The position numbers and the translations under genes are program-made. The notes beneath the pieces are model-generated. The model worked only from the letters and a program-made list of their open reading frames with translations, did no database searches and was not told the origin of the DNA. From a virus: 26,348 bases of DNA. Shown in pieces: positions 4,190 through 26,077 of this stretch; position 1 is the first letter of the stretch, and each line of letters starts with the position of its first letter. The stretch is from positions 1 to 26,348 of the IMG/VR virus record IMGVR_UViG_3300013132_000223; one strand, 5' to 3'.

Positions 4190-5302
4190 CTAGAATGAAC
4201 CAGCCTGTGAACTACCAAGACTTACTTGTGAAATACCAGATTGTCCAGCAAATCTTGCCTGTTCTTGTTCTTGAAGTTTCTTACGACGTTGAGAAGGCAT
4301 CAATGTTCCAGTTGTTTGACCGAATGCTTCTTGTGTAAGTTCTTGTTGTAAACCTGTTGTATCTTGTTGAGAAATTTCTGCAAGTTTTTGTGTAGTTGGT
4401 AAAGTTTCAGAAAGAGTAGCGTATGCTTCTTTAGCAATGTTACCTATTTGTTCAGTTGAATAACCACTAGTAGTTAACTGTTTTTCAAGTTGACTGATGT
4501 CTTGTTCGGCAACATTAACTTTACTTGTTGTAGCACCTGTACGAATATAGGCTTTACGAAGATTAGTTTCTAACTGGTTGATACCTTCAGGTCCTTGCAT
4601 TAAAGCAAGAGCAACTTGTGAACGTTGCTTAGCAGGGTCACCAACACCATAAGCACCTAAGTAGTTACTTAGTTGTGTTTTTAATTCATCTGGTGCATTA
4701 TCAATTTTAGCAAACACTCTATCAATACGAGCCTTAGCCTCATCAAGAGAAGTAAGCCCACCAATTAAAGCAGTAAAAGTATTTTGTGTAGCAAGTTCAT
4801 TAAGATTATATTGATTAAACAAATCACGAAAAGTTTGTTCAGCAGTAAGATATTCACCAGGAGTATAGGTAGGTAAACCTTTTGCTCTGCGACCTTCATT
4901 ACCAGCAAAACGTGTTTTATATGCTTCGGTTTGAGGTAAAAGAAGACGTGCTTCTTCAGCAGTGTATCCTTCTGTCATAAACTTTTTAATATCAGCAATT
5001 AAAGTAGGTAACCCAAGTCTTGTAAGTTCTTCTTCAATAAGAGCAAAAGCACTGCGACGTCTTTCTGAACGTTCAGCCTCATAAGGGTCAGGTGTAGTAG
5101 TAACTACTGGAGTTGAACCTGGAACAGTACCACCATAAGTTCCTTGACCTTGAACTAAACCACCAGATAGTTGAGTAAGAGTAGGAACTGCAACATTTGG
5201 ATTAACAACGTTTTGAACTCCAGCAAGTGATTTAGCAACTTCATTTTGTACTTGTTGCCAGTTAGTTGCTTTGTCTATTAAATATTCTCTATAACTAGCC
5301 AT
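4190..5302 (-). CDS. Putative virion-associated protein, 370 residues
   Basis: Soluble, mostly helical and Gln/Thr-rich. It begins MASYREYLIDKATNWQQV. The middle holds FAGNEGRRAKGLPTYTPGEY then LTAEQTFRDLFNQYNL. A similar segment (R.AGNE.RR..GLP...P.EYL..E..YR) is one I recall from structural proteins of several actinophages, where it lies near tape-measure or internal virion proteins. The C-terminus is basic and then Ser/Gly-rich. The ATG overlaps the upstream stop as TAATG at 5302. It is most likely an internal virion, ejection or tail-tube-associated protein. The exact role is unknown. Confidence 0.65.
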   Translation of the reverse strand: MASYREYLIDKATNWQQVQNEVAKSLAGVQNVVNPNVAVPTLTQLSGGLVQGQGTYGGTVPGSTPVVTTTPDPYEAERSERRRSAFALIEEELTRLGLPTLIADIKKFMTEGYTAEEARLLLPQTEAYKTRFAGNEGRRAKGLPTYTPGEYLTAEQTFRDLFNQYNLNELATQNTFTALIGGLTSLDEAKARIDRVFAKIDNAPDELKTQLSNYLGAYGVGDPAKQRSQVALALMQGPEGINQLETNLRKAYIRTGATTSKVNVAEQDISQLEKQLTTSGYSTEQIGNIAKEAYATLSETLPTTQKLAEISQQDTTGLQQELTQEAFGQTTGTLMPSQRRKKLQEQEQARFAGQSGISQVSLGSSQAGSF

Positions 5303-6849
5303 TACGCTGTCCTAAAATCTTGATTAATCATATTTATATATTCTGCTGCTTCTGCACGAGCACCATTTGTGTAAGGAAATTCTGGAGTATTTCTTAAGAA
5401 TTTATTAAAATCAGTAAAGTTAAGATTATTTGTTAAACCATTATCAACATATCTATTATCAAGTGTAATAGTATTAGGATTAATTTCTAAAGTTTTAGAC
5501 ATAGCATTAATATATGGTGAAGCAATTTCTGTCATAGTTAAATCTTCATCAATAAATTTTGCATACTGTGGATATCTAATCTTAGCAATATTTTTTATTT
5601 TAAGTTTACTATTTTCTAAAGCATTCTTATCAGTCAAAGCATTAATAGCATACTTACGTACATCAGCATCAGATAAAACAACATTATAACTTGAAGCAAA
5701 TTTACGTAAAGTAGAAAGATTAGAACCTACAACACCACCAACATTTTGAACACCCTTAGTGTCAATATATCGGTCAACAAAACGTGCTGCTAATAATTCA
5801 CGGTCTTCTTTAGTAATACCAGGAGTTGAAACCTGAGTAGTTGTTGTACCAGTTCTAGTGGTTACTTGTTTAGCAACTTTACTTTTTTCAAGTTTTCTTA
5901 ACTCTTTATAATACTGTTCAGCATCTTTAGGATTAGCATTCATGCCAGTAGCATCAAAAATAAAATCATTAAAATCTTGATATGCTTCTTCTTTAGTAGT
6001 AACAGATGGTTGAAGAAAAATACTTGTACCATCACCAGTACCAGCAATATCTTTATTGTATTCTATTTCGCTAGCAAGCCAAGTAGTAAAAGGTTTCTTT
6101 GAAGTACTGTTAGAAATAGCATAATTTTCAACAAGTTTATTCCAAGCAGTATTAACAGTATCTGCTCTTGTATATTTAGTGTTAGGATTATATTGTTGAA
6201 GTATTGACAAGATTTTATTTTTAGTTGCAGTGTCACCTTTAACAAATAAATCTTGCGCAGCACCTAAAGTATATTCTTTACCACCAACAGGAATCTTTGC
6301 AATGTCATCTAAATCGGTAGGAAGATTTCTTGTTATAGGTTTACTCATACCTTTAACACCAGTAATTTTAATATTGTTTTTCATTTCTTCACGAAGTTGA
6401 GAACGAGCAGGAATATTAGTAGGTCTGGTTCTAGTTACTAACTTTTTTGCTTCAGGTAAAAATTGATTATATCTTTTTTTACCATATGTTCCAGTCCAAG
6501 CCTTTAAACCATCACCTTTATTTTTTTTATATTTACTTGCTTCTTTCCATACAAGATATGCTGCTTTAGCGTTAGTTTCAGGGTCAAGTAATTGTTCATT
6601 AGATTTAATACCAAATTTTTCACGACGGTCAGGACCTAAATCATCCTTCATATTAATCTGAAAAATGCCGTAAGATAAATCACCAGTTTCTGGATTATTA
6701 TTAATTTTATTAGCATCAAGTGATTCATTTTCTGCTTGAGCAATAGCAAGCATTTTAGGAACAACTTCTTCAGGAAAACCGACTCCTCTTAAAAGAAACA
6801 TTATTTGTGTAAGAGTTAATATTCCTGGTGCTATTACATTACTCGGCAT
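5302..6849 (-). CDS. Virion protein with N-terminal lysozyme/transglycosylase-like domain
   Basis: 515 residues. Residues about 10-140 resemble a lysozyme-fold soluble lytic transglycosylase domain. They include an AIAQAENES segment with candidate catalytic Glu40, then GDLSYGIFQINM (residues 56-67), equivalent to the DYGLWQIN motif of the family, and KAAYLVWKEASKYKK with KAWTGTYGKKRYNQF. The remaining 370 residues are helical and unassigned. Such fusions are usually packaged in the virion and open the peptidoglycan locally during DNA entry, distinct from a lysis endolysin. It lies between two other probable internal virion proteins and overlaps the giant gene by 11 bases. Active-site assignment is from pattern only. 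Confidence 0.75.
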   Translation of the reverse strand: MPSNVIAPGILTLTQIMFLLRGVGFPEEVVPKMLAIAQAENESLDANKINNNPETGDLSYGIFQINMKDDLGPDRREKFGIKSNEQLLDPETNAKAAYLVWKEASKYKKNKGDGLKAWTGTYGKKRYNQFLPEAKKLVTRTRPTNIPARSQLREEMKNNIKITGVKGMSKPITRNLPTDLDDIAKIPVGGKEYTLGAAQDLFVKGDTATKNKILSILQQYNPNTKYTRADTVNTAWNKLVENYAISNSTSKKPFTTWLASEIEYNKDIAGTGDGTSIFLQPSVTTKEEAYQDFNDFIFDATGMNANPKDAEQYYKELRKLEKSKVAKQVTTRTGTTTTQVSTPGITKEDRELLAARFVDRYIDTKGVQNVGGVVGSNLSTLRKFASSYNVVLSDADVRKYAINALTDKNALENSKLKIKNIAKIRYPQYAKFIDEDLTMTEIASPYINAMSKTLEINPNTITLDNRYVDNGLTNNLNFTDFNKFLRNTPEFPYTNGARAEAAEYINMINQDFRTA

Positions 6850-16984: not shown

Positions 16985-17036
16985 TTAGTTTGGTCTGTGA
17001 GGGGTGGCGCGTGGTCGCTCGTGGCATGAGGTGTCG

Positions 17037-17051
17037 CTTTCTATTAGAAAG
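17037..17051. promoter_or_regulatory. Operator-like palindrome, copy 1
   Basis: CTTTCTATTAGAAAG, 7 bp arms around a single T. It ends seven bases before the -35 of the promoter at 17059-17087, upstream of the HTH regulator gene. First of nine copies in the early region. A dimeric repressor or activator site is the simplest reading, and the HTH protein encoded next to it is the obvious candidate binder. Confidence 0.75.
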
Positions 17052-17058
17052 TGTCCTA

Positions 17059-17087
17059 TTGATTGAATGCCATGTCTCGTGTAGTAT
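17059..17087 (+). promoter_or_regulatory. Early promoter for the HTH regulator
   Basis: TTGATT (17059-17064), 17 bp spacer, TAGTAT (17082-17087). The operator palindrome ends seven bases upstream. The same operator, 7 bp gap, TTGATT, 17 bp, -10 arrangement recurs at 17924-17975, which strengthens both. Predicted leader about 95 bases. Confidence 0.6.
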
Positions 17088-17126
17088 TAGATGTATGAGT
17101 GAGACTAATTTATGCCATGCGATAGG

Positions 17127-17168
17127 CCAAAAGGTTTCTTTTGGTTTATCGGGTGAAACTAGTCACCC
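17127..17168 (+). promoter_or_regulatory. Tandem hairpins in the early regulator leader
   Basis: CCAAAAG / CTTTTGG (17127-17133 and 17138-17144, 4-base loop) is followed at once by GGGTGA / TCACCC (17151-17156 and 17163-17168, 6-base loop). Both lie between the promoter and the regulator ATG at 17188. They may control translation or mRNA decay; the layout mirrors the paired hairpins of the late leader. Confidence 0.45.
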
Positions 17169-17187
17169 TCTAAAGAAAGATGAGAAT

Positions 17188-17763
17188 ATGAGTAAGACAG
17201 AAGAAAGACCCGTAATCGAATTGACTCACGAGAAAGTCGTGCAATTAGTGAGTGAATTAGAGAATGGCTACAAGGTAATAGATGAGACTAATGCCAAAAC
17301 TAAAGATGAGATTAAGAAACTAAAGGACGCTAGACGCGTGGTTTCAAAGTCTGTCTTTGGTCGAGTTCCAATGGCCTCATTTATGGTCTCTGAGGCTGTT
17401 GCTAAAGGGATTACATCTATTAAGAAAGTTAGTGATGATTCGGGCGTATCAATTAGCACAATTAGTAGATATGAATGGATAGGCACTACTCTCTCCAATG
17501 TCGGACTAACCAAGACATCTGAGAAACTAGCCACTAAATCACTAAATCTCTTAATCGGGGGTGTCTTGAAAAAACAGGACATGCTTAGTGTTCGAGATGT
17601 CGAGTCTTGGAAGCAAATGATTCAAGATAAGACATTTAAATTACCTAGTGCCCCGAACATCAATAGTGTTTGTGAGGCCATAGGTAACGGCTCTTATGAC
17701 AAACATCTAAACGATATTGAAACAGCCATTTCAACTCGTAGAAAAGTAATGGTGAAAGCGTAA
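17188..17763 (+). CDS. HTH DNA-binding early regulator
   Basis: 191 residues from the ATG at 17188. The N-terminal half is a charged helical region (VVQLVSELENGYKV, KDEIKKLKDARR). Residues about 75-99 (KKVSDDSGVSISTISRYEWI) form a helix-turn-helix, with GVS as the turn and ISTISRYE as the recognition helix. The C-terminal third has no recognised fold. The frame extends upstream to 16990, but that part holds an operator, a promoter and two hairpins and has odd composition, so the downstream ATG is preferred. First gene of the rightward module, followed by a strong terminator, so it forms its own transcription unit. It is the best candidate to bind the repeated palindrome. Repressor versus activator cannot be told. 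Confidence 0.75.
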   Translation: MSKTEERPVIELTHEKVVQLVSELENGYKVIDETNAKTKDEIKKLKDARRVVSKSVFGRVPMASFMVSEAVAKGITSIKKVSDDSGVSISTISRYEWIGTTLSNVGLTKTSEKLATKSLNLLIGGVLKKQDMLSVRDVESWKQMIQDKTFKLPSAPNINSVCEAIGNGSYDKHLNDIETAISTRRKVMVKA

Positions 17764-17778
17764 ATCACCATTCACAAG

Positions 17779-17816
17779 ATAAGCCCTCACGATATCGTGG
17801 GGGCTTATTCTTTTGT
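17779..17816 (+). terminator. Rho-independent terminator after the HTH regulator
   Basis: ATAAGCCCTCACGAT (17779-17793) pairs with ATCGTGGGGGCTTAT (17794-17808), with one G-T wobble and the central GATATC as tight loop, followed by TCTTTT. It is the strongest terminator in the window and isolates the regulator from the following early operon. Confidence 0.85.
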
Positions 17817-17820
17817 GCTC

Positions 17821-17837
17821 ACTTTCTATTAGAAAGT
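17821..17837. promoter_or_regulatory. Operator-like palindrome, copy 2
   Basis: ACTTTCTATTAGAAAGT, a perfect 17 bp palindrome with a single central T, immediately after the regulator terminator. No convincing promoter hexamers sit at the standard distance from this copy. It may act together with copy 3, 103 bp away. Confidence 0.7.
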
Positions 17838-17923
17838 AAAAAATTATTGAGTTGTTCAATTTTCTGAACCTGTTGTTGCTCGTTGCTGTTTTTTAATCCT
17901 GTTGCTGTTCGTTGTTGTTTTCT

Positions 17924-17940
17924 ACTTTCTGATAGAAAAT
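17924..17940. promoter_or_regulatory. Operator-like palindrome, copy 3 (imperfect)
   Basis: ACTTTCTGATAGAAAAT keeps the TTTCT and AGAAA half-sites but differs at the centre and right end. It has the same 7 bp spacing to a TTGATT -35 box as copy 1. It precedes the promoter of the second early transcription unit. Just upstream (17870-17920) is an imperfect GTTGCTGTT repeat tract. Confidence 0.65.
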
Positions 17941-17946
17941 AGTCTA

Positions 17947-17975
17947 TTGATTTGGGGGTAGGTTTGTGGTATACT
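17947..17975 (+). promoter_or_regulatory. Early promoter for the small-protein operon
   Basis: TTGATT (17947-17952), 17 bp spacer, TATACT (17970-17975). The spacing to the operator is identical to that at 17037-17087. Transcription would start near 17982, about 20 bases before the ATG at 18003. Confidence 0.7.
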
Positions 17976-18002
17976 TGTAGTATCAAGTGAAAGGATAATG
18001 TG

Positions 18003-18224
18003 ATGAGGAAAAATATTCCCACGCGAAAGATTATTCGCACACGCTCTATTGCGTTTGCGCCTAATCGTAGTAAAGCATTACGCAATGAGGCTCATTCAGT
18101 TGTGCCTAAGTGTGGTCGTGCTAAGCAATCCTACGACCCTCAAAGACGCCTACAATTTTGGTTAAAACAGGTGTCTTTATCTGACGAGTTACTTTCTATT
18201 AGAAAGTTACAAAACAATGTATAG
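18003..18224 (+). CDS. 73-residue basic early protein
   Basis: Starts MRKNIPTRKIIRTRSIAFAP from the ATG at 18003, with AAAGGA seven bases upstream; a GTG directly before it (18000) is an alternative start. Arg/Lys-rich N-terminus, then KCGRAKQSYDPQRRLQFWLK. The C-terminal codons LLSIRKL are written over operator copy 4 (18191-18207), so binding site and coding sequence coincide. No family recognised. First gene after a strong early promoter, so it could be a host-takeover or regulatory protein; this is inference. Confidence 0.55.
   Translation: MRKNIPTRKIIRTRSIAFAPNRSKALRNEAHSVVPKCGRAKQSYDPQRRLQFWLKQVSLSDELLSIRKLQNNV
18191..18207. promoter_or_regulatory. Operator-like palindrome, copy 4, inside a gene end
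   Basis: ACTTTCTATTAGAAAGT, the perfect 17 bp form, within the last codons of the 73-residue gene and ten bases before the next ATG (18217). No good promoter match is adjacent, so here it may block elongation or act in the RNA as a hairpin near the ribosome binding region. Confidence 0.65.
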
Positions 18225-18417
18225 TGGTAATGAGGGTAACAAGTTAGTTGATATTCAATTGATTTGGACTCGTGTTGATAAGTCCGAACATTGGTATAAC
18301 AATTATCTAATGAAATGTCAGTGGTGTGAGTGGCGTTACATTGCAGACAATTTTGACACTATTCGTAATGTTATCGAGAAACACCTGAAAGGGGTGCATG
18401 AAAGTAATGCAAAGTAA
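18217..18417 (+). CDS. 66-residue protein with a C2H2-type zinc-finger pattern
   Basis: Begins MYSGNEGNKLVDIQLIWTRV. Cys34 and Cys37 (KCQWCEW), then His56 and His61 (EKHLKGVH), give C-x2-C-x18-H-x4-H, a plausible single zinc finger. The WTRV..SEHWYNNYLMKC stretch precedes it. The start overlaps the end of the 73-residue gene by eight bases. The role is unknown; small zinc-finger proteins in actinophage early regions are usually uncharacterised. Confidence 0.65.
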   Translation: MYSGNEGNKLVDIQLIWTRVDKSEHWYNNYLMKCQWCEWRYIADNFDTIRNVIEKHLKGVHESNAK

Positions 18418-18763
18418 TAAACGAAATGTTGCTCGCAAGAGAGCATTTTACAAGTTGAGGGACAAGTATCCTAAACAATACCAAAAGTTTTATTTGGAGG
18501 AGTTGGCTGTGCTTGACCTGAAACCTAGAAAGTCAAAAAGAAAACCTGTCAAGGAAACAAATGTTGCCCCTGAACAGGTTGAAAAAATAATTGCTGAGCG
18601 CATGATGACAACAGAATATCTTGGTGCGCTTATGCAAGAAGGTGTGGTTTCTAACAGAAAGTTAGATATTGATATCGAACCTGTTGATGTCACACTTGAT
18701 GAAAATTATTCACCACTCTGGGATAAGAGTGCGTGGATATTCAAAGATGAGAAAGGAGAATAA
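18398..18763 (+). CDS. 121-residue hypothetical early protein
   Basis: Starts MKVMQSNKRNVARKRAFYKL, preceded by AAAGGGG, overlapping the previous gene by 20 bases; a second ATG at 18407 is possible but has a poorer ribosome site. The first half is basic and helical (ARKRAFYKLRDKYPKQYQKF), the middle Lys/Pro-rich, and the second half acidic (DIDIEPVDVTLDENYS). The N-terminal part recalls small actinophage proteins with R.K.A...L...YP..Y, of unknown function. A degenerate operator copy lies within the codons for SNRKL. Confidence 0.6.
   Translation: MKVMQSNKRNVARKRAFYKLRDKYPKQYQKFYLEELAVLDLKPRKSKRKPVKETNVAPEQVEKIIAERMMTTEYLGALMQEGVVSNRKLDIDIEPVDVTLDENYSPLWDKSAWIFKDEKGE
18646..18662. promoter_or_regulatory. 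Degenerate operator-like palindrome, copy 5, inside coding sequence
   Basis: GGTTTCTAACAGAAAGT retains TTTCT and AGAAAGT half-sites with a changed centre. It lies inside the 121-residue gene. It may be a weak site or a coincidence; it is the least certain member of the family. Confidence 0.35.
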
Positions 18764-18838
18764 ATGTATTGGGGCGATTGGTTGGCAATAGCATTGCTTT
18801 TGTCAGCAGTAAGTGCTTTACTAATTTGGAAAAGATAA
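18764..18838 (+). CDS. 24-residue single-span membrane micro-protein
   Basis: The frame encodes MYWGDWLAIALLLSAV... ending LLIWKR. Nearly the whole protein is one hydrophobic helix flanked by Trp residues and a basic C-terminus. It begins one base after the upstream stop, with GAAAGGAG as an ideal ribosome site, and ends just before the next ribosome site. Function unknown. Short membrane peptides of phages can act on host membrane enzymes, which is only a possibility here. Confidence 0.5.
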   Translation: MYWGDWLAIALLLSAVSALLIWKR

Positions 18839-18850
18839 GGAGAAAGAATA

Positions 18851-19072
18851 ATGGAAAGCAATACAATAGAAATGAAGATAAGTCATGACGGCTATCGTAA
18901 TATGGCTGGAATGTTTATCTGCAATGTCCTTGAGAATGTTAAAACTCGCAAGGATTGGACTATACAAGATGCGTCATTCTTACTACTAGGTGCAATGAAA
19001 ATTGCTCGTGGTCTGCCAGATGACGAATTTGCTCTATTGATTTCTTCAATAGATAAAAGGTATAATGGTTAG
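18851..19072 (+). CDS. 73-residue hypothetical early protein
   Basis: Starts MESNTIEMKISHDGYRNMAG with AAGGAG eight bases before the ATG. The remainder (FICNVLENVKTRKDWTIQDA, then LLLGAMKIARGLPDDEFALL) looks like a compact helical protein. No family recognised. The last codons overlap a strong promoter match (19037-19066) for the following amidoligase gene. Confidence 0.55.
   Translation: MESNTIEMKISHDGYRNMAGMFICNVLENVKTRKDWTIQDASFLLLGAMKIARGLPDDEFALLISSIDKRYNG
19037..19066 (+). promoter_or_regulatory. Promoter for the amidoligase cassette
   Basis: TTGATT (19037-19042), 18 bp spacer, perfect TATAAT (19061-19066), inside the 3' end of the previous gene. Operator copy 6 begins 12 bases after the -10, covering the expected start of transcription, a classical repressor position. 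Confidence 0.65.
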
Positions 19073-19078
19073 TAACAC

Positions 19079-19095
19079 ATTTTCTATTAGAAAGG
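19079..19095. promoter_or_regulatory. Operator-like palindrome, copy 6
   Basis: ATTTTCTATTAGAAAGG contains the TTTCTATTAGAAA core. It lies between the TATAAT promoter and the amidoligase ATG at 19102. It leaves only GGTAG as a weak ribosome site before the ATG, so a bound protein would also cover the 5' end of the message-coding DNA. Confidence 0.7.
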
Positions 19096-19101
19096 TAGAT
19101 T

Positions 19102-20247
19102 ATGGAAACCGAAGTGCCAGAACCAGAAGCACAAGAAACTTGTGAAGGTTGTGGTTTAACAGAAAGCGATAGTGGTTGTGATATAATCACTCTTGATGAG
19201 GGTTTATATTGCACCGATTGCTTGCGTTGCTGTGATGCTTGCAACGAGTATTACAGACACAAAAGTGATACTCATTGGTTTGACAGCATTTGTGGTGATT
19301 GCCAAGGTGACCACTTTGAATGCAGTTCATGTAACAAGGTGTATCACTTTGATGACAGCATAAGTTCAACAGACACACAAGAAACTTTGTGTTCACGCTG
19401 TGCTGACATGTATTGGACATATTGTAGTGAATGCAACGAATGGTATGAAGATTACAACCATAATGATGAGTGTGATGACGCTTATCGTGAAGGCATCAAC
19501 GACTACTCGTTCAAACCTACACCAATATTTCACTACCAGCCTGAGAAACCGAGCAAAACCTTTTTCGGTTTAGAGTTAGAAGTTGAGGCTGTTCATGAAA
19601 CTATCAGTGCAGGTGTAGATATCGTTCGCAAATATGCTGACGATAATTTGCTGTATCTCAAAAGTGATGGCAGTTTAAGTGACGGCTTCGAGATTGTCAC
19701 TCATCCTATGACTCACGATTGGGCTATGGAAAAGTTCCCTTGGGAGATGATAGAGAGACTACGCAGAGCAGGTTACAGGTCTTGGGACACTGACACTTGT
19801 GGTTTGCATGTGCATGCTTCTCGCACCTCATTTGTTGACAGGTCACACTTGTGGAAGTGGACTTATCTTATCAACAAAAACTCTGACGAGTGTATCAAAT
19901 TGGCTGGCCGTCATAGTCACTATGCACAATTCTATGGTGTCAAACCGACTAGCGATATTGTGTTACGCAAGTCTATGCCACGAGAAAGATATGTGGCTAT
20001 CAACTTACACCCTAGACACACCGTTGAGGTGCGCATATTCAAGGGTTCGTTACGCATACCGAGAGTTAAGACAGCACTAGATTTCATGCAGTCGTCTATC
20101 GAGTTTGCTAACAAGTTGACAATCAAAGAGGCAAGTAGTGGTCAGACTTGGTCTATGTTCAAAGATTATGTCGGCGAGCATAGTAGCAGGTTTGAGAACT
20201 TATACTTGCGTCTCAACGCAGATAAACTAACTGATTCATTGAGTTAG
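19102..20247 (+). CDS. Amidoligase (COOH-NH2 ligase) with N-terminal zinc-binding clusters
   Basis: 381 residues. Residues 1-130 carry many CxxC pairs (14/17, 37/40, 44/47, 64/67, 74/77, 97/100, 108/111), suggesting several zinc ribbons or treble clefs. Residues about 153-340 match the Amidoligase_2 family, a glutamine-synthetase-like fold: FGLELEVE (155-162) with metal-binding Glu158/Glu160, DGSLSDGFEIVTHP (189-202), CGLHVHAS (233-240) and HTVEVRIFKGSL (306-317). Family members use ATP to join a carboxylate to an amine, making amide or peptide bonds. The next gene encodes a glutamine amidotransferase, the partner often seen with this family, so the two probably act together. Substrate unknown. 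It has its own promoter and operator. Confidence 0.82.
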   Translation: METEVPEPEAQETCEGCGLTESDSGCDIITLDEGLYCTDCLRCCDACNEYYRHKSDTHWFDSICGDCQGDHFECSSCNKVYHFDDSISSTDTQETLCSRCADMYWTYCSECNEWYEDYNHNDECDDAYREGINDYSFKPTPIFHYQPEKPSKTFFGLELEVEAVHETISAGVDIVRKYADDNLLYLKSDGSLSDGFEIVTHPMTHDWAMEKFPWEMIERLRRAGYRSWDTDTCGLHVHASRTSFVDRSHLWKWTYLINKNSDECIKLAGRHSHYAQFYGVKPTSDIVLRKSMPRERYVAINLHPRHTVEVRIFKGSLRIPRVKTALDFMQSSIEFANKLTIKEASSGQTWSMFKDYVGEHSSRFENLYLRLNADKLTDSLS

Positions 20248-20262
20248 TTTCTATTAGAAAAC
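20246..20262. promoter_or_regulatory. Operator-like palindrome, copy 7
   Basis: AGTTTCTATTAGAAAAC, core TTTCTATTAGAAA, starts at the stop codon of the amidoligase gene and precedes the AAGGAGAGAG ribosome site of the next gene. No separate promoter is evident. Confidence 0.65.
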
Positions 20263-20282
20263 ACAACAGAAAAGGAGAGAGT

Positions 20283-21128
20283 ATGTGTTTACTTATGGTA
20301 GCAAAACCAAACGCAATGCCAAAAGATGATGACTTGGTTTGCGCTTGTGTTAATAATCCAGACGGGTTCGGTTATGCCGTTCACACTGGTAAAACAATAA
20401 TCACAGGTCGTGGTATGAACCATGATGATGTGATAGATAGGTTTCTTACAACTCGTGAGAAATATATCAATGGTTGGGCAATGTTTCATGCACGCTTCAC
20501 CACACATGGTGAAACTATGAAAGATAATTGTCACCCGTTTCGTGTAGGTGGTAGCCCGAATACTATCCTTGCGCACAACGGTATCCTGAGCAATGTCAGA
20601 ATACCTAATGGTGACAGGCGTTCAGATACTCGCGTGTTCGCTGAGGATTTACTACCTAAACGGCTCAACATCTTGGATAGTAAAAAGAAGTTCAAGAAGT
20701 TAGAGAAGTGGGCTGGTGGTTCTAAAATTGCTGTGTTCAGCACAGACAGGCGATTACAGAAGGCTGTGTATATTGTCAACGAGAAGTTAGGTCACTGGGA
20801 TAATGATGGTTTGTGGTGGTCTAATAGTTCATACAAGCAATACTACTACACCTACACCAAGCCTAAAACTTGGACATCATCTTACGATATAGCCAACGGC
20901 ATTGATAACAAATACATTATCGATGGTGAGGACTTGACAGAGTTTGTTGAGGAAGGTATGGCTTGTAGTTATTGTGGCCATTTCTTTGCCGAACCAGACT
21001 ATTTCCACGGCTATTGTCAGACATGCTGGACTTGTCTAGAATGTCAAGACTTCGAAGAATCTTGTATGTGTTACAGACCAGCATATAAGATTGGTCAAAG
21101 ACAACGCGAATTAGAATACGATTTCTAA
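20283..21128 (+). CDS. Class II glutamine amidotransferase with C-terminal zinc ribbon
   Basis: 281 residues. After Met removal Cys2 would be the N-terminal nucleophile (MCLLMVAKPN). Other class II (Ntn hydrolase) motifs follow in order: NPDGFGYAVH (25-34), HARFTTHGE (69-77), NCHPF (82-86), LAHNGILSN (96-104, oxyanion Asn99/Gly100) and SDTRVF (114-119). It would hydrolyse glutamine to release ammonia for transfer. The C-terminal region has CSYC (228-231), Cys245/248/251/254 and CMC (261-263), a zinc-binding module echoing that of the amidoligase. AAGGAGAGAG precedes the ATG. The pairing with an amidoligase suggests amide formation on a shared substrate. Confidence 0.87.
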   Translation: MCLLMVAKPNAMPKDDDLVCACVNNPDGFGYAVHTGKTIITGRGMNHDDVIDRFLTTREKYINGWAMFHARFTTHGETMKDNCHPFRVGGSPNTILAHNGILSNVRIPNGDRRSDTRVFAEDLLPKRLNILDSKKKFKKLEKWAGGSKIAVFSTDRRLQKAVYIVNEKLGHWDNDGLWWSNSSYKQYYYTYTKPKTWTSSYDIANGIDNKYIIDGEDLTEFVEEGMACSYCGHFFAEPDYFHGYCQTCWTCLECQDFEESCMCYRPAYKIGQRQRELEYDF

Positions 21129-21136
21129 TAGAAAGT
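21120..21136. promoter_or_regulatory. Operator-like palindrome, copy 8, overlapping a stop codon
   Basis: GATTTCTAATAGAAAGT, inverted orientation of the central base (A instead of T). The TAA stop of the amidotransferase gene lies inside it. It sits 11 bases before the next ATG. Confidence 0.65.
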
Positions 21137-21146
21137 GGTGAGATAT

Positions 21147-21212
21147 ATGAAAGACTATTGTGAGGATTGTGGACAACCTGAATGGTTGTGTATCTGTGGA
21201 GGTGATACATGA
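21147..21212 (+). CDS. 21-residue Cys-rich micro-protein
   Basis: MKDYCEDCGQPEWLCICGGD plus Thr. Four cysteines in CxxC and CxC arrangement could bind one zinc ion, a minimal zinc ribbon. GGTGAG lies before the ATG, and its stop overlaps the next start as ATGA. Its motif resembles the C-terminal cluster of the amidotransferase just upstream, so duplication of that module is possible. Confidence 0.5.
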   Translation: MKDYCEDCGQPEWLCICGGDT

Positions 21213-21307
21213 AAACAACATGTGAGGAATGTGGTCGTGTGTTTAATTTATTCGACGACAAAGATGCACAAGAATTAATCTATGGTCACGATTGTGAATC
21301 ATACTGA
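21209..21307 (+). CDS. 32-residue zinc-finger-like micro-protein
   Basis: Begins MKTTCEECGRVFNLFDDKDA and ends YGHDCESY. Cys5, Cys8, His27 and Cys29 could make a CxxC...HxC zinc site. GGAGGTGA lies directly upstream of the ATG, and the start is coupled to the previous gene by ATGA. Function unknown. Confidence 0.55.
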   Translation: MKTTCEECGRVFNLFDDKDAQELIYGHDCESY

Positions 21308-21328
21308 GAAGAAAGAGAGGTGAATAAA

Positions 21329-21493
21329 ATGATAAATGAAAACATTGACCCACGCATGGCAATAGCACAAGTGTTGGGTGAATTAGAAACAGCAGAAGAA
21401 TCTGATGCTTTCATGACAAAGATACAATCTGCTAAGAGTAATGTTGAAGCATATCAAATATGTTTAGACACATTGATGGGGGTAAACAGATGA
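21329..21493 (+). CDS. 54-residue hypothetical early protein
   Basis: Starts MINENIDPRMAIAQVLGELE, all helical by appearance, acidic. GAGAGGTG precedes the ATG. The stop overlaps the next start as ATGA (21490-21493). No family recognised. Confidence 0.55.
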   Translation: MINENIDPRMAIAQVLGELETAEESDAFMTKIQSAKSNVEAYQICLDTLMGVNR

Positions 21494-21624
21494 CATTTGA
21501 CCCTATCACATGCCATGGCCAATCTTGGGGTAACTATTGTGACATATGCGAGCAAGAAGCATATCGTGAATACATCCAAGAAATGGGAGAGGACTACGAT
21601 AATCAAGGGGGTGATGATGAGTAA
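21490..21624 (+). CDS. 44-residue Cys/His small protein
   Basis: Begins MTFDPITCHGQSWGNYCDIC, with Cys8, His9, Cys17 and Cys20 as possible zinc ligands, then an acidic tail ending GGDDE. Coupled at both ends (ATGA upstream, TAATG downstream). Small zinc knuckle of unknown role. Confidence 0.55.
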   Translation: MTFDPITCHGQSWGNYCDICEQEAYREYIQEMGEDYDNQGGDDE

Positions 21625-21830
21625 TGGAATTAGTAGAAAAAATAAACGTGTTTGCTTCTAACTTGTTGACAGAATTTTCTGCTGTTGAAAACGACAGCGA
21701 GTTTATTCTAACATTACAGGAACACGACTTGTATTATGATTTCGATAGGGCAAGTCGCTATCTTGAACACATTAAAGAATACACTTCAGCGTATCTTTAT
21801 GCCTACGATAAGGAGATGAGTAATGCTTGA
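21624..21830 (+). CDS. 68-residue hypothetical early protein
   Basis: Starts MELVEKINVFASNLLTEFSA. Acidic, helical, Tyr-rich at the end (YLEHIKEYTSAYLYAYDKEM). Overlaps the previous gene by one base and WhiB by eight, so it is in the same coupled chain. No family recognised. Confidence 0.55.
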   Translation: MELVEKINVFASNLLTEFSAVENDSEFILTLQEHDLYYDFDRASRYLEHIKEYTSAYLYAYDKEMSNA

Positions 21831-22128
21831 TGTGGTACTGGGTGAGAAAGCAAAGCAAGCCAAATGCTACAATCACCCAGACCCTGACTGGTTTCATATC
21901 CCTGGAAATAATGTGGTCAATAAACATCAGAAACAATTTTGTAATGGTTGTAAAATTATTACTGAATGTTTAGACTATGCGTTAAGGAATGATGTGTCAG
22001 GTGTGTGGGGTGGCACAACAACAGGTGAAAGAAGAACGATGAGAAGAAGTATGGGTATCAGGGTGATACCTATATCGTTGAGGGAGGTAAATGATGGCAC
22101 GGAAGAAGAAAGAGGAAGACGATATTGA
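21823..22128 (+). CDS. whiB: WhiB-family iron-sulfur transcriptional regulator
   Basis: 101 residues. The four family cysteines are at 15, 40, 43 and 49 (C...CNGCKIITEC), which hold a 4Fe-4S cluster, followed by the G(V/I)WGG turn at 60-64 and a basic C-terminal segment (GERRTMRRSMG) that contacts DNA. WhiB proteins bind the primary sigma factor and alter promoter choice, and some also sense nitric oxide or redox state. Phage copies can act in place of or against host WhiB proteins, as shown for WhiBTM4 of a mycobacteriophage. The last about 20 residues overlap the next gene by 38 bases. It is the strongest indicator of an actinobacterial host in the window. Confidence 0.92.
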   Translation: MLDVVLGEKAKQAKCYNHPDPDWFHIPGNNVVNKHQKQFCNGCKIITECLDYALRNDVSGVWGGTTTGERRTMRRSMGIRVIPISLREVNDGTEEERGRRY

Positions 22129-22390
22129 AACATTAGTTGATGAGGCGTTTCCTAAAGATAGTGAGGCTATCATGAAATCTATGGAAGCAACAGAGCAAAT
22201 CACTGACGAAGCATCAAGGTTCATAAACTTTGATGAGATATGGGAAGCAGCAGCGACACAGAAAGAAGCAAGACTTGCTATCCTAAGTATGTCTGGTATG
22301 CTTGCCTTTGCTGTATCTGAACATGGTGGAATGTATCTTGACCATTTGATACAACAAGAGGAAGAAGACAATGGAAATAAGGAAGGCTGA
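22091..22390 (+). CDS. 99-residue acidic hypothetical protein
   Basis: Starts MMARKKKEEDDIETLVDEAF with a near-perfect GGGAGG ribosome site inside the end of WhiB. The middle (SRFINFDEIWEAAATQKEAR) and LAILSMSGMLAFAVSEHGGM suggest a helical domain; the end is Glu-rich. No family recognised. It overlaps WhiB by 38 bases and the next gene by 20. Confidence 0.65.
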   Translation: MMARKKKEEDDIETLVDEAFPKDSEAIMKSMEATEQITDEASRFINFDEIWEAAATQKEARLAILSMSGMLAFAVSEHGGMYLDHLIQQEEEDNGNKEG

Positions 22391-22583
22391 TTGGAGTGGA
22401 ATACCTACTTCTGTTTGCCCTAACTGTGATTGTACTTGGTTTAATGTTCCGATAACATTTGACCCTGATACATACGAGATAGCAGCATATGGTATTGAGG
22501 GTGTAACTTGTTGGTCTTGTGACCAACCTATTACTCCTCCAATACCCATTGATTCTAAACTAGATGAGAAAGAGGATGAGTAA
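22371..22583 (+). CDS. 70-residue zinc-ribbon-like protein
   Basis: Starts MEIRKADWSGIPTSVCPNCD. CPNC (16-19) and CWSC (about 47-50) make a typical four-cysteine zinc ribbon with an intervening beta-rich segment (WFNVPITFDPDTYEI). The tail is acidic. The function is unknown; zinc ribbons often serve in nucleic-acid or protein contact. Confidence 0.65.
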   Translation: MEIRKADWSGIPTSVCPNCDCTWFNVPITFDPDTYEIAAYGIEGVTCWSCDQPITPPIPIDSKLDEKEDE

Positions 22584-22693
22584 TGGGTTGGATTCTTACA
22601 GGTGTATTCGTTAGTACAACTTTGTTCTATGGTGTTAGTTACTATAAACAGGTTGAGTTAACCGTTAGGGAAAGGATGAGACCCTATGAATAA
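22583..22693 (+). CDS. 36-residue membrane micro-protein
   Basis: MGWILTGVFVSTTLFYGVSY forms one hydrophobic span, followed by a charged tail (KQVELTVRERMRPYE). Its ATG overlaps the upstream stop as TAATG. It is the last gene before the AT-rich gap. Function unknown. Confidence 0.55.
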   Translation: MGWILTGVFVSTTLFYGVSYYKQVELTVRERMRPYE

Positions 22694-22711
22694 AACTTTA
22701 AGCATCAGGAT

Positions 22712-22740
22712 TTGCATTAGTATTAAACCAGTATTATAAT
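22712..22740 (+). promoter_or_regulatory. Promoter for the DNA metabolism genes
   Basis: TTGCAT (22712-22717), 17 bp spacer, perfect TATAAT (22735-22740). Transcription would start near 22747 inside the AT tract and read the operator and hairpin into the nuclease gene. Other TATAAT hexamers occur within the tract, so extra start sites are possible. Confidence 0.65.
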
Positions 22741-22802
22741 ATTATATTATATAATATAACATTATATAATATATATAATATAATATATATAATATAATAT
22801 AA
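22732..22802. repeat. 71 bp tract of A and T with a single C
   Basis: Only one base (C at 22762) is not A or T. It consists of overlapping ATATAAT units and is partly self-complementary. Such tracts serve as DNA-unwinding elements at origins or as promoter-proximal melting zones. It lies between a good promoter and an extended operator copy, directly upstream of DNA replication and recombination genes. Confidence 0.7.
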
Positions 22803-22823
22803 CTACTTTCTATTAGAAAGTAG
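22803..22823. promoter_or_regulatory. Operator-like palindrome, copy 9, longest form
   Basis: The ACTTTCTATTAGAAAGT core (22805-22821) is extended by CT on the left and AG on the right, giving 10 bp arms around one central T, the most symmetric copy. It sits at the right border of the AT tract and just before the leader hairpin of the nuclease operon. Confidence 0.75.
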
Positions 22824-25537: not shown

Positions 25538-26077
25538 TTGACAACAATAATAGGTTTACAGAAAAAAGATTATTGTCTTCTTGTTGCTGATTCACGTATC
25601 ACTGATGATGATGGTAGAACTTATTATCATCCTCATGTTACTAAGATAACTAAGCGTGGAAAGTATTTGATTGCAGGTGCAGGACTTACACAGCCTTGTG
25701 ACATTATTCAACACAACTGGTTACCACCAACACCAACATCTGTAGCCTATAAAGATTTGTATCATTACATGATTGCATCAGTTGTTCCATCAATGAGGAC
25801 AGCGTTAGCAGTTAACGGGTATGCACCTGATAAAGATAATGATGATGCAGATTTTATTTTCCTTATCGCATTAGGTGGCACAATATTTGAAGTAGATGAT
25901 TCACTATCTGTACTTATGCGTGAAGATGGAATCTATGGTATAGGTTCAGGTTCTGCCTACGCAATAGGTGCATTGCATGCTGGTGCTACTTGGAAACACG
26001 CTATGCAAATTGCTGCAAAGAATAATATATTTACAGCACCACCATTCATAACACAAAAGCAGGTAAAAAATGGATAA
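25538..26077 (+). CDS. Proteasome/HslV-like Ntn hydrolase
   Basis: 179 residues with a TTG start preceded by AGGGA. The N-terminus MTTIIGLQKKDYCLLVADSR matches the self-activating proteasome beta/HslV fold: Thr2 would become the catalytic N-terminal threonine after Met removal, Asp18 lies in VADSR, and Lys36 in VTKITKRGKYLIAGAG corresponds to the catalytic lysine. A glycine-rich GIGSGSAYAIGALHAG segment (134-149) is the other hallmark. Length fits HslV (about 175). The target is unknown: it may degrade host proteins, process virion proteins, or use the fold for another amidohydrolase. No HslU-like unfoldase is in the window. Confidence 0.8.
   Translation: MTTIIGLQKKDYCLLVADSRITDDDGRTYYHPHVTKITKRGKYLIAGAGLTQPCDIIQHNWLPPTPTSVAYKDLYHYMIASVVPSMRTALAVNGYAPDKDNDDADFIFLIALGGTIFEVDDSLSVLMREDGIYGIGSGSAYAIGALHAGATWKHAMQIAAKNNIFTAPPFITQKQVKNG

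Follow-up and report, generated by a model that had tools for sequence, protein, structure and literature searches.

Gene layout and catalytic domains of the pair

The window, the whole stretch of DNA analysed here, is a viral record in full with a length of 26,348 bases and a GC content of 37.7%. It shows the gene set of a tailed phage, with the major capsid protein, portal and terminase genes on the - strand, and its + strand carries replication and other early genes. Two neighbouring genes of the + strand form the cassette studied. The first (19102..20247) encodes an amidoligase, a GS-like COOH-NH2 ligase of 381 amino acid residues, and the second (20283..21128) encodes a class II glutamine amidotransferase (GATase) of 281 residues. 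Both are ATG open reading frames and have exactly the coordinates given in a preliminary description of this DNA. The amidoligase was assigned according to PF12224, phrog_16683, AF2 and Foldseek, and the GATase according to phrog_25883, AF2, Foldseek and the matches of its family members to PF13230 and PF13522. NCBIfam gave weak GlmS/PurF matches only, and neither protein was matched by PADLOC. Outside the cassette, a gene encoding a WhiB-like protein (21823..22128, + strand; PF02467, E=2.3e-14) indicates an actinobacterial host, and the source of the window is an aquatic phage of Actinobacteria.

The ligase domain spans residues ~150-345 of the amidoligase. The protein matched Amidoligase_2 (PF12224) with an E-value of 1.9e-8 and 34.9 bits, against a cut-off of 22, and phrog_16683 with an E-value of 9.7e-38, and all 45 family members matched Amidoligase_2 at E<=0.01. 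The GS-like Amidoligase_2 assignment of the preliminary description is thereby confirmed, and the motifs quoted in it are present on invariant columns of the 45-member alignment. Invariant residues are G156, E158, E160, D189, E197, H236, H238, R241, R270, E309 and R311. We take the ExE, E, HxH and ExR residues to be the metal and ATP ligands of the GS fold; these acidic, histidine and arginine residues, whose loss would have spoken against a ligase, are predicted to form an intact active site for ATP-dependent amide ligation.

The GATase of the window matched GATase_4 (PF13230) with an E-value of 9e-5 and 22.0 bits, one bit below the 23-bit cut-off. Among its relatives, 33 of 33 matched GATase_4 and 28 of 33 matched GATase_6 at E<=0.01, and the match to phrog_25883 had an E-value of 1.6e-42. 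Residues C2, R71, T74, H75, H84, N99, G100 and D115 are invariant across the 33 members and presumably correspond to the glutamine site of GlmS. The nucleophile Cys2 directly follows Met1: its column is invariant, and 76 of 78 open reading frames as called start with MC. The motifs HxRxxTxG, NxHPF and HNG were found in all 78 sequences and SDT in 77. The class II GATase motifs quoted in the preliminary description lie on invariant columns (33 members), and with the catalytic motifs intact the second protein is predicted to have glutaminase activity.

AlphaFold models (AF2, single chains), built from the family alignments, had a mean pLDDT of 84.4 for the amidoligase and 80.7 for the GATase. 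Foldseek searches against PDB matched the amidoligase model to YbdK, glutamine synthetases, GmaS, PafA and Dop (best E=3.5e-5), and the GATase model to the GlmS glutaminase domain, EgtC and PurF (best E=3.8e-7). Whole-chain TM-scores were low for both models (0.3-0.47), therefore these matches give the fold class only.

Each protein also contains a cysteine-rich module. In the amidoligase it is N-terminal (residues 14-124; 19141..19473, + strand) and comprises two repeat units, which matched each other with an internal hhalign probability of 76%. Nine of its cysteines are invariant and five nearly invariant in the 45-member alignment. The spacing from C14 to C67 resembles the LIM pattern CX2C-X16-23-HX2C-X2-CX2C-X16-21-CX2(C/H/D), which holds two zinc ions. 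The Pfam LIM family was matched by one of the 45 members (E=2.9e-5), LIM sequences in PDB gave weak matches (best E=0.023), and so did LIM structures in Foldseek (e.g., LMO2, prob 0.75). On this basis the array may be described as LIM-like. The module of the GATase is C-terminal (residues 228-263; 20964..21071, + strand) and has eight cysteines in the pattern CX2C-X13-CX2C-X2-CX2C-X6-CXC, all of them invariant in the 33 members; the model is of low confidence there, with block pLDDT values of about 54-70. The multi-CxxC clusters pointed out in the preliminary description are thus more than chance in both proteins, and both modules probably bind zinc. Homology or mutual pairing of the two modules was unsupported (hhalign probability 7-26%); since they are not detectably homologous, they may well have different binding partners, and the docking to a common substrate suggested in the preliminary description is only a possibility.

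Palindromes and regulation of the early region

Three palindromes surround the two genes. One with the sequence TTTCTATTAGAAA lies upstream of the amidoligase (19081..19093) and is kept in all seven close relatives that contain this DNA, though the upstream gene differs among them. Another TTTCTATTAGAAA palindrome lies between the genes (20248..20260), its first base directly following the amidoligase stop codon, and this site is TTTCTAWTAGAAA in all eight close relatives that have the gap. The third, TTTCTAATAGAAA, overlaps the GATase stop codon (21122..21134) and was found in 8/8 close relatives with the region. Since close relatives retain the palindromes around the pair, also when another gene has taken the upstream position, the sites themselves are conserved.

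Allowing up to two mismatches, the TTTCTATTAGAAA palindrome has 20 matches against 2.6 expected, and the palindrome TTTCTAWTAGAAA has nine sites in 17038-22819, including two that deviate at one position. The palindromes belong to the whole early region and are not specific to the pair. Of the two operators attributed to the cassette in the preliminary description, the palindromes are real and conserved in relatives, but they are not dedicated to it. The position in a regulated early region is supported. The dedicated promoter proposed there was not upheld: the match of 10 out of 12 positions at 19037-19066 is mostly inside the upstream gene and is not conserved in relatives, and the number of promoter-like matches in the region (22) is not clearly above that in shuffled sequences (15.4, sd 4.0).

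Similar arrays were found in other phages. In 33 of the 80 viral loci some exact-arm palindrome occurs at least four times, against a maximum of 1-2 in shuffled sequences, although a few of the 33 (e.g., L038 and L048) are AT-rich runs. The sequences vary by phage, and the positions recur, for example 0-3 bases after the ligase stop codon. Phage-specific palindromes of 13-17 bp with 4-9 copies were observed in the window and in L034, L042, L043, L045, L049, L051, L064, L066, L074, L076, L079, L087, L094 and L110, at conserved positions between early genes; examples are TTTCTAWTAGAAA, GTAAGATAATCTTAC, GGTCGGWTTCCGACC, GTCTGATAATCAGAC, GTACGAYAATCGTAC and GTTTGGATTTCCAAAC. This looks like a dispersed operator (stoperator-like) system with turnover of specificity, comparable to the stoperators of cluster A mycobacteriophages. 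The array may be more unusual than the enzyme pair.

A candidate for binding the palindromes is a putative helix-turn-helix protein (16990..17763, + strand; weak HTH_3 match, E=0.003), whose true start is probably downstream of 16990. Of the loci that extend 2.5 kb or more upstream, 22 have both the palindrome array and an upstream gene of this family or an analogous one, two have the array only, two the gene only and 29 neither, an association with a Fisher p of 5e-11, uncorrected for phylogeny.

Distribution of the pair and its known relatives

A profile search of the viral collection gave at least 599 pattern matches and at least 597 confirmed relatives, of which the best 80 loci entered the analysis. 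Since this selects the closest relatives, the statistics hold for the zinc-type clade alone. Among these best 80 of at least 597 relatives, the GATase gene directly follows the amidoligase in all 78 testable loci, and in the other two the contig ends before its position. The 78 paired loci belong mostly to actinophages. The gap between the two genes ranges from -38 to 37 bp, with a one-base overlap in a dozen cases, and no ligase-GATase fusion was found among the loci searched. The linkage proposed in the preliminary description thus extends to related phages, and within the zinc-type clade the two enzymes are an obligate pair. A WhiB-family gene is located within five genes downstream of the pair in 50 of the 80 loci.

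A scan of 84,980 species genomes yielded 71 bacterial loci, mostly from Nocardia and other Actinobacteria, as well as Clostridia and Ruminococcus, with 86 adjacent ligase-GATase pairs. The order ligase-GATase-ligase-GATase was found in 29 loci. The tandem copies of Nocardia are ~45-50% identical to each other; however, copy 1 best matches copy 1 and copy 2 best matches copy 2 across species, for both proteins and in nearly all loci. Order and partners are thus the same from species to species, which indicates two old, separately maintained pairs. Pairwise identities of ligases and GATases correlate at 0.90. This would fit cognate partners, and correlated divergence is also expected of any co-inherited pair. 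The occurrence of the pair is patchy among the sampled genomes: it was found in 30 of 80 Nocardia genomes and in one of 296 genomes sampled from the rest of the phylum (centre genome itself excluded). The neighbours of the cellular copies include DUF4192, DprA, Prim-Pol, SSB and a TrwC relaxase, and for this reason these copies look like mobile elements. In L121, L123, L126, L131 and other Nocardia loci, two or three pairs stand in tandem in islands that also contain DUF4192, DprA, Prim-Pol and SSB genes. Contigs of gut Clostridia and Ruminococcus (L029 4161-6163 and L171-L191) contain amidoligases with N-terminal cysteine arrays, some of them adjoining a more distant GATase, and represent a branch outside Actinobacteria.

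The pairing of an amidoligase with a class II GATase is already known in phages. As stated in the preliminary description, the family literature links GS-like amidoligases with class II GATases (Iyer et al. 2009, as cited in PMC10580990), and PMC10580990 also cites this connection for gp105 and gp106 of Marvin. Marvin is a Mycobacterium phage (Marvinvirus) whose Amidoligase_2-like and class II GATase genes are adjacent, as in the window, at 29-32% identity. Its gp106 keeps a similar C-terminal eight-cysteine module; gp105 differs from the ligase of the window in a shorter cysteine array and an extra C-terminal region. In the Marvin genome the pair is located at the right end and has hypothetical genes as neighbours. 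Both gp105 and gp106 are annotated as glutamine amidotransferase domain proteins; this label of the amidoligase, seen in L025 4534-5895 (JF704100.1, Marvin gp105) and in other Marvin-group records, has apparently been transferred from the neighbouring gene.

One early phage region also holds the two enzyme classes in the systems of Iyer et al. 2009 (as cited in PMC10580990) and in LUZ24-like phages such as UFV-P2 (PMC3890496). In UFV-P2 an HNH gene separates amidoligase and GATase, and ATP-grasp and AIG2-like genes accompany them (PMC3890496). The Methylophilales phages MEP401 and MEP402 and the Manatee Spring podovirus MW202733 show adjacent amidoligase and GATase genes with the catalytic motifs kept. 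Unlike the GATase of the window, those of MEP402 and MW202733 are devoid of the eight-cysteine module, and of these two, which were aligned, only MW202733 has the extended N-terminal cysteine array. Amidoligase/class II GATase pairs are thus widespread in phages, and their substrate is unreported in the literature surveyed. The novel features of the present case are that the pairing is obligate, that both partners bear a putative zinc module, that a tandem form exists in cells, and that the neighbours are of mobile-element rather than cell-wall type. No description of the zinc-bearing variant, the obligate pairing or the tandem form was found in the literature searched, and papers dealing with phages of Nanopelagicales, of reservoirs and of Actinomarinales are silent on it. 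With at least 597 confirmed viral relatives, the clade points to the Marvin-group phages of Mycobacterium smegmatis as a cultured model, and the tandem form of Nocardia is natural material on partner and substrate specificity.

Possible function of the pair

We favour glutamine-dependent amidation of a protein. In this tentative reading, which we hold with somewhat less than even confidence, the pair is a mobile-element-borne, two-protein, amide-forming enzyme that makes protein contacts through its cysteine modules and has a protein as its likelier target. The class II GATase would use its Cys2 nucleophile to hydrolyse glutamine to ammonia. With ATP, the GS-fold amidoligase would turn a carboxylate into an activated acyl phosphate, which it would then couple to this ammonia or to a small amine. 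The likeliest role of the LIM-like array and the eight-cysteine module would be in contacts between proteins, to keep ligase and GATase assembled or to bring in a target protein. We infer that ammonia passes between the subunits, that a protein is the substrate and that the phage benefits.

An amide-forming pair is suggested because both families and folds were recovered with invariant catalytic residues, and because the genes are adjacent in all testable viral loci and in the cellular pairs, with correlated identities. Contacts with proteins are suggested because LIM domains are protein-interaction modules, and this makes a host or phage protein a likelier substrate than a free metabolite, DNA or the cell wall. 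Zinc ribbons can bind nucleic acid too, which counts against this reading. The low whole-chain TM-scores and the lack of a fusion among the loci searched also weigh against it, and the GATase could, given EgtC among its structural matches, hydrolyse gamma-glutamyl amides. The Pup ligase/deamidase PafA/Dop, matched by the ligase model in Foldseek, uses a GS fold on a protein substrate; to our knowledge, it has neither a class II GATase partner nor a LIM-like array. A bolder version, which we consider unlikely, is that mobile elements use the pair to recode a host protein, converting specific Asp/Glu carboxylates to amides or conjugating an amine, with LIM-like modules that select the target for host takeover or counter-defence and the two pairs of Nocardia acting on two targets.

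Opposite reactions of the two enzymes offer a doubtful alternative that nevertheless deserves some weight. EgtA and EgtC add and remove a gamma-glutamyl group in ergothioneine synthesis, and the ligase could likewise load an amine with a gamma-glutamyl group, or with that of another amino acid, and the GATase-like enzyme could take this group off again. YbdK and GmaS, structural neighbours of the ligase, are gamma-glutamyl ligases, EgtC is among those of the GATase, and in UFV-P2 the region with the amidoligase, GATase and ATP-grasp genes also contains an AIG2/GGCT-like gene (PMC3890496). However, no GGCT or pathway family appears near the zinc-type pair among the 25 of 31 families listed, and in PDB the GATase profile is closest in sequence to PurF and GlmS, which transfer ammonia.

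Enzymes such as MurT/GatD and LtsA amidate peptidoglycan or its precursors, and an amidation of this kind by the pair could change the surface, or lysis by other phages, and exclude superinfection. This appears quite unlikely. Iyer et al. 2009 proposed cell-wall amidation for phiEco32, as cited in PMC10580990, and a transglycosylase-like gene lies near the pair in 40 of the 80 loci, directly upstream in 11; the transglycosylase is plausibly a mere lysis or entry enzyme. The fold is GS and not Mur ligase, and neither Mur-type or lipid II genes nor any other cell-wall family occur near the cellular copies among the 25 of 31 families listed. The MurT/GatD type itself, a Mur-ligase domain with a class I-type GATase, is excluded by the GS fold of the ligase and the class II GATase.

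Amidoligases and GATases have also been discussed for phage base modification, and the zinc modules could bind DNA; formation of an amide on a modified base by the pair is nonetheless very unlikely. No base-modifying enzyme was found among the genes scanned in the window, weak evidence since this is a 26-kb fragment, and none among the 25 of 31 families listed near the cellular copies. The neighbours of the cellular copies thus lend neither cell-wall amidation nor DNA modification support, as an absence of evidence.

Finally, two other genes of the window encode predicted enzymes. A virion-region protein (5302-6849) has an N-terminal lysozyme-like SLT_3 domain (E=1.5e-6). An HslV/proteasome-beta-like peptidase (25538-26077; phrog_1040, E=1.7e-29), encoded 4.4 kb downstream of the pair, was rejected as an obligate partner, as it is missing from several records of ~40 kb; it is present in 18 of 50 amidoligase-carrying records and begins with M-T-T-I-I-G, like proteasome subunits.
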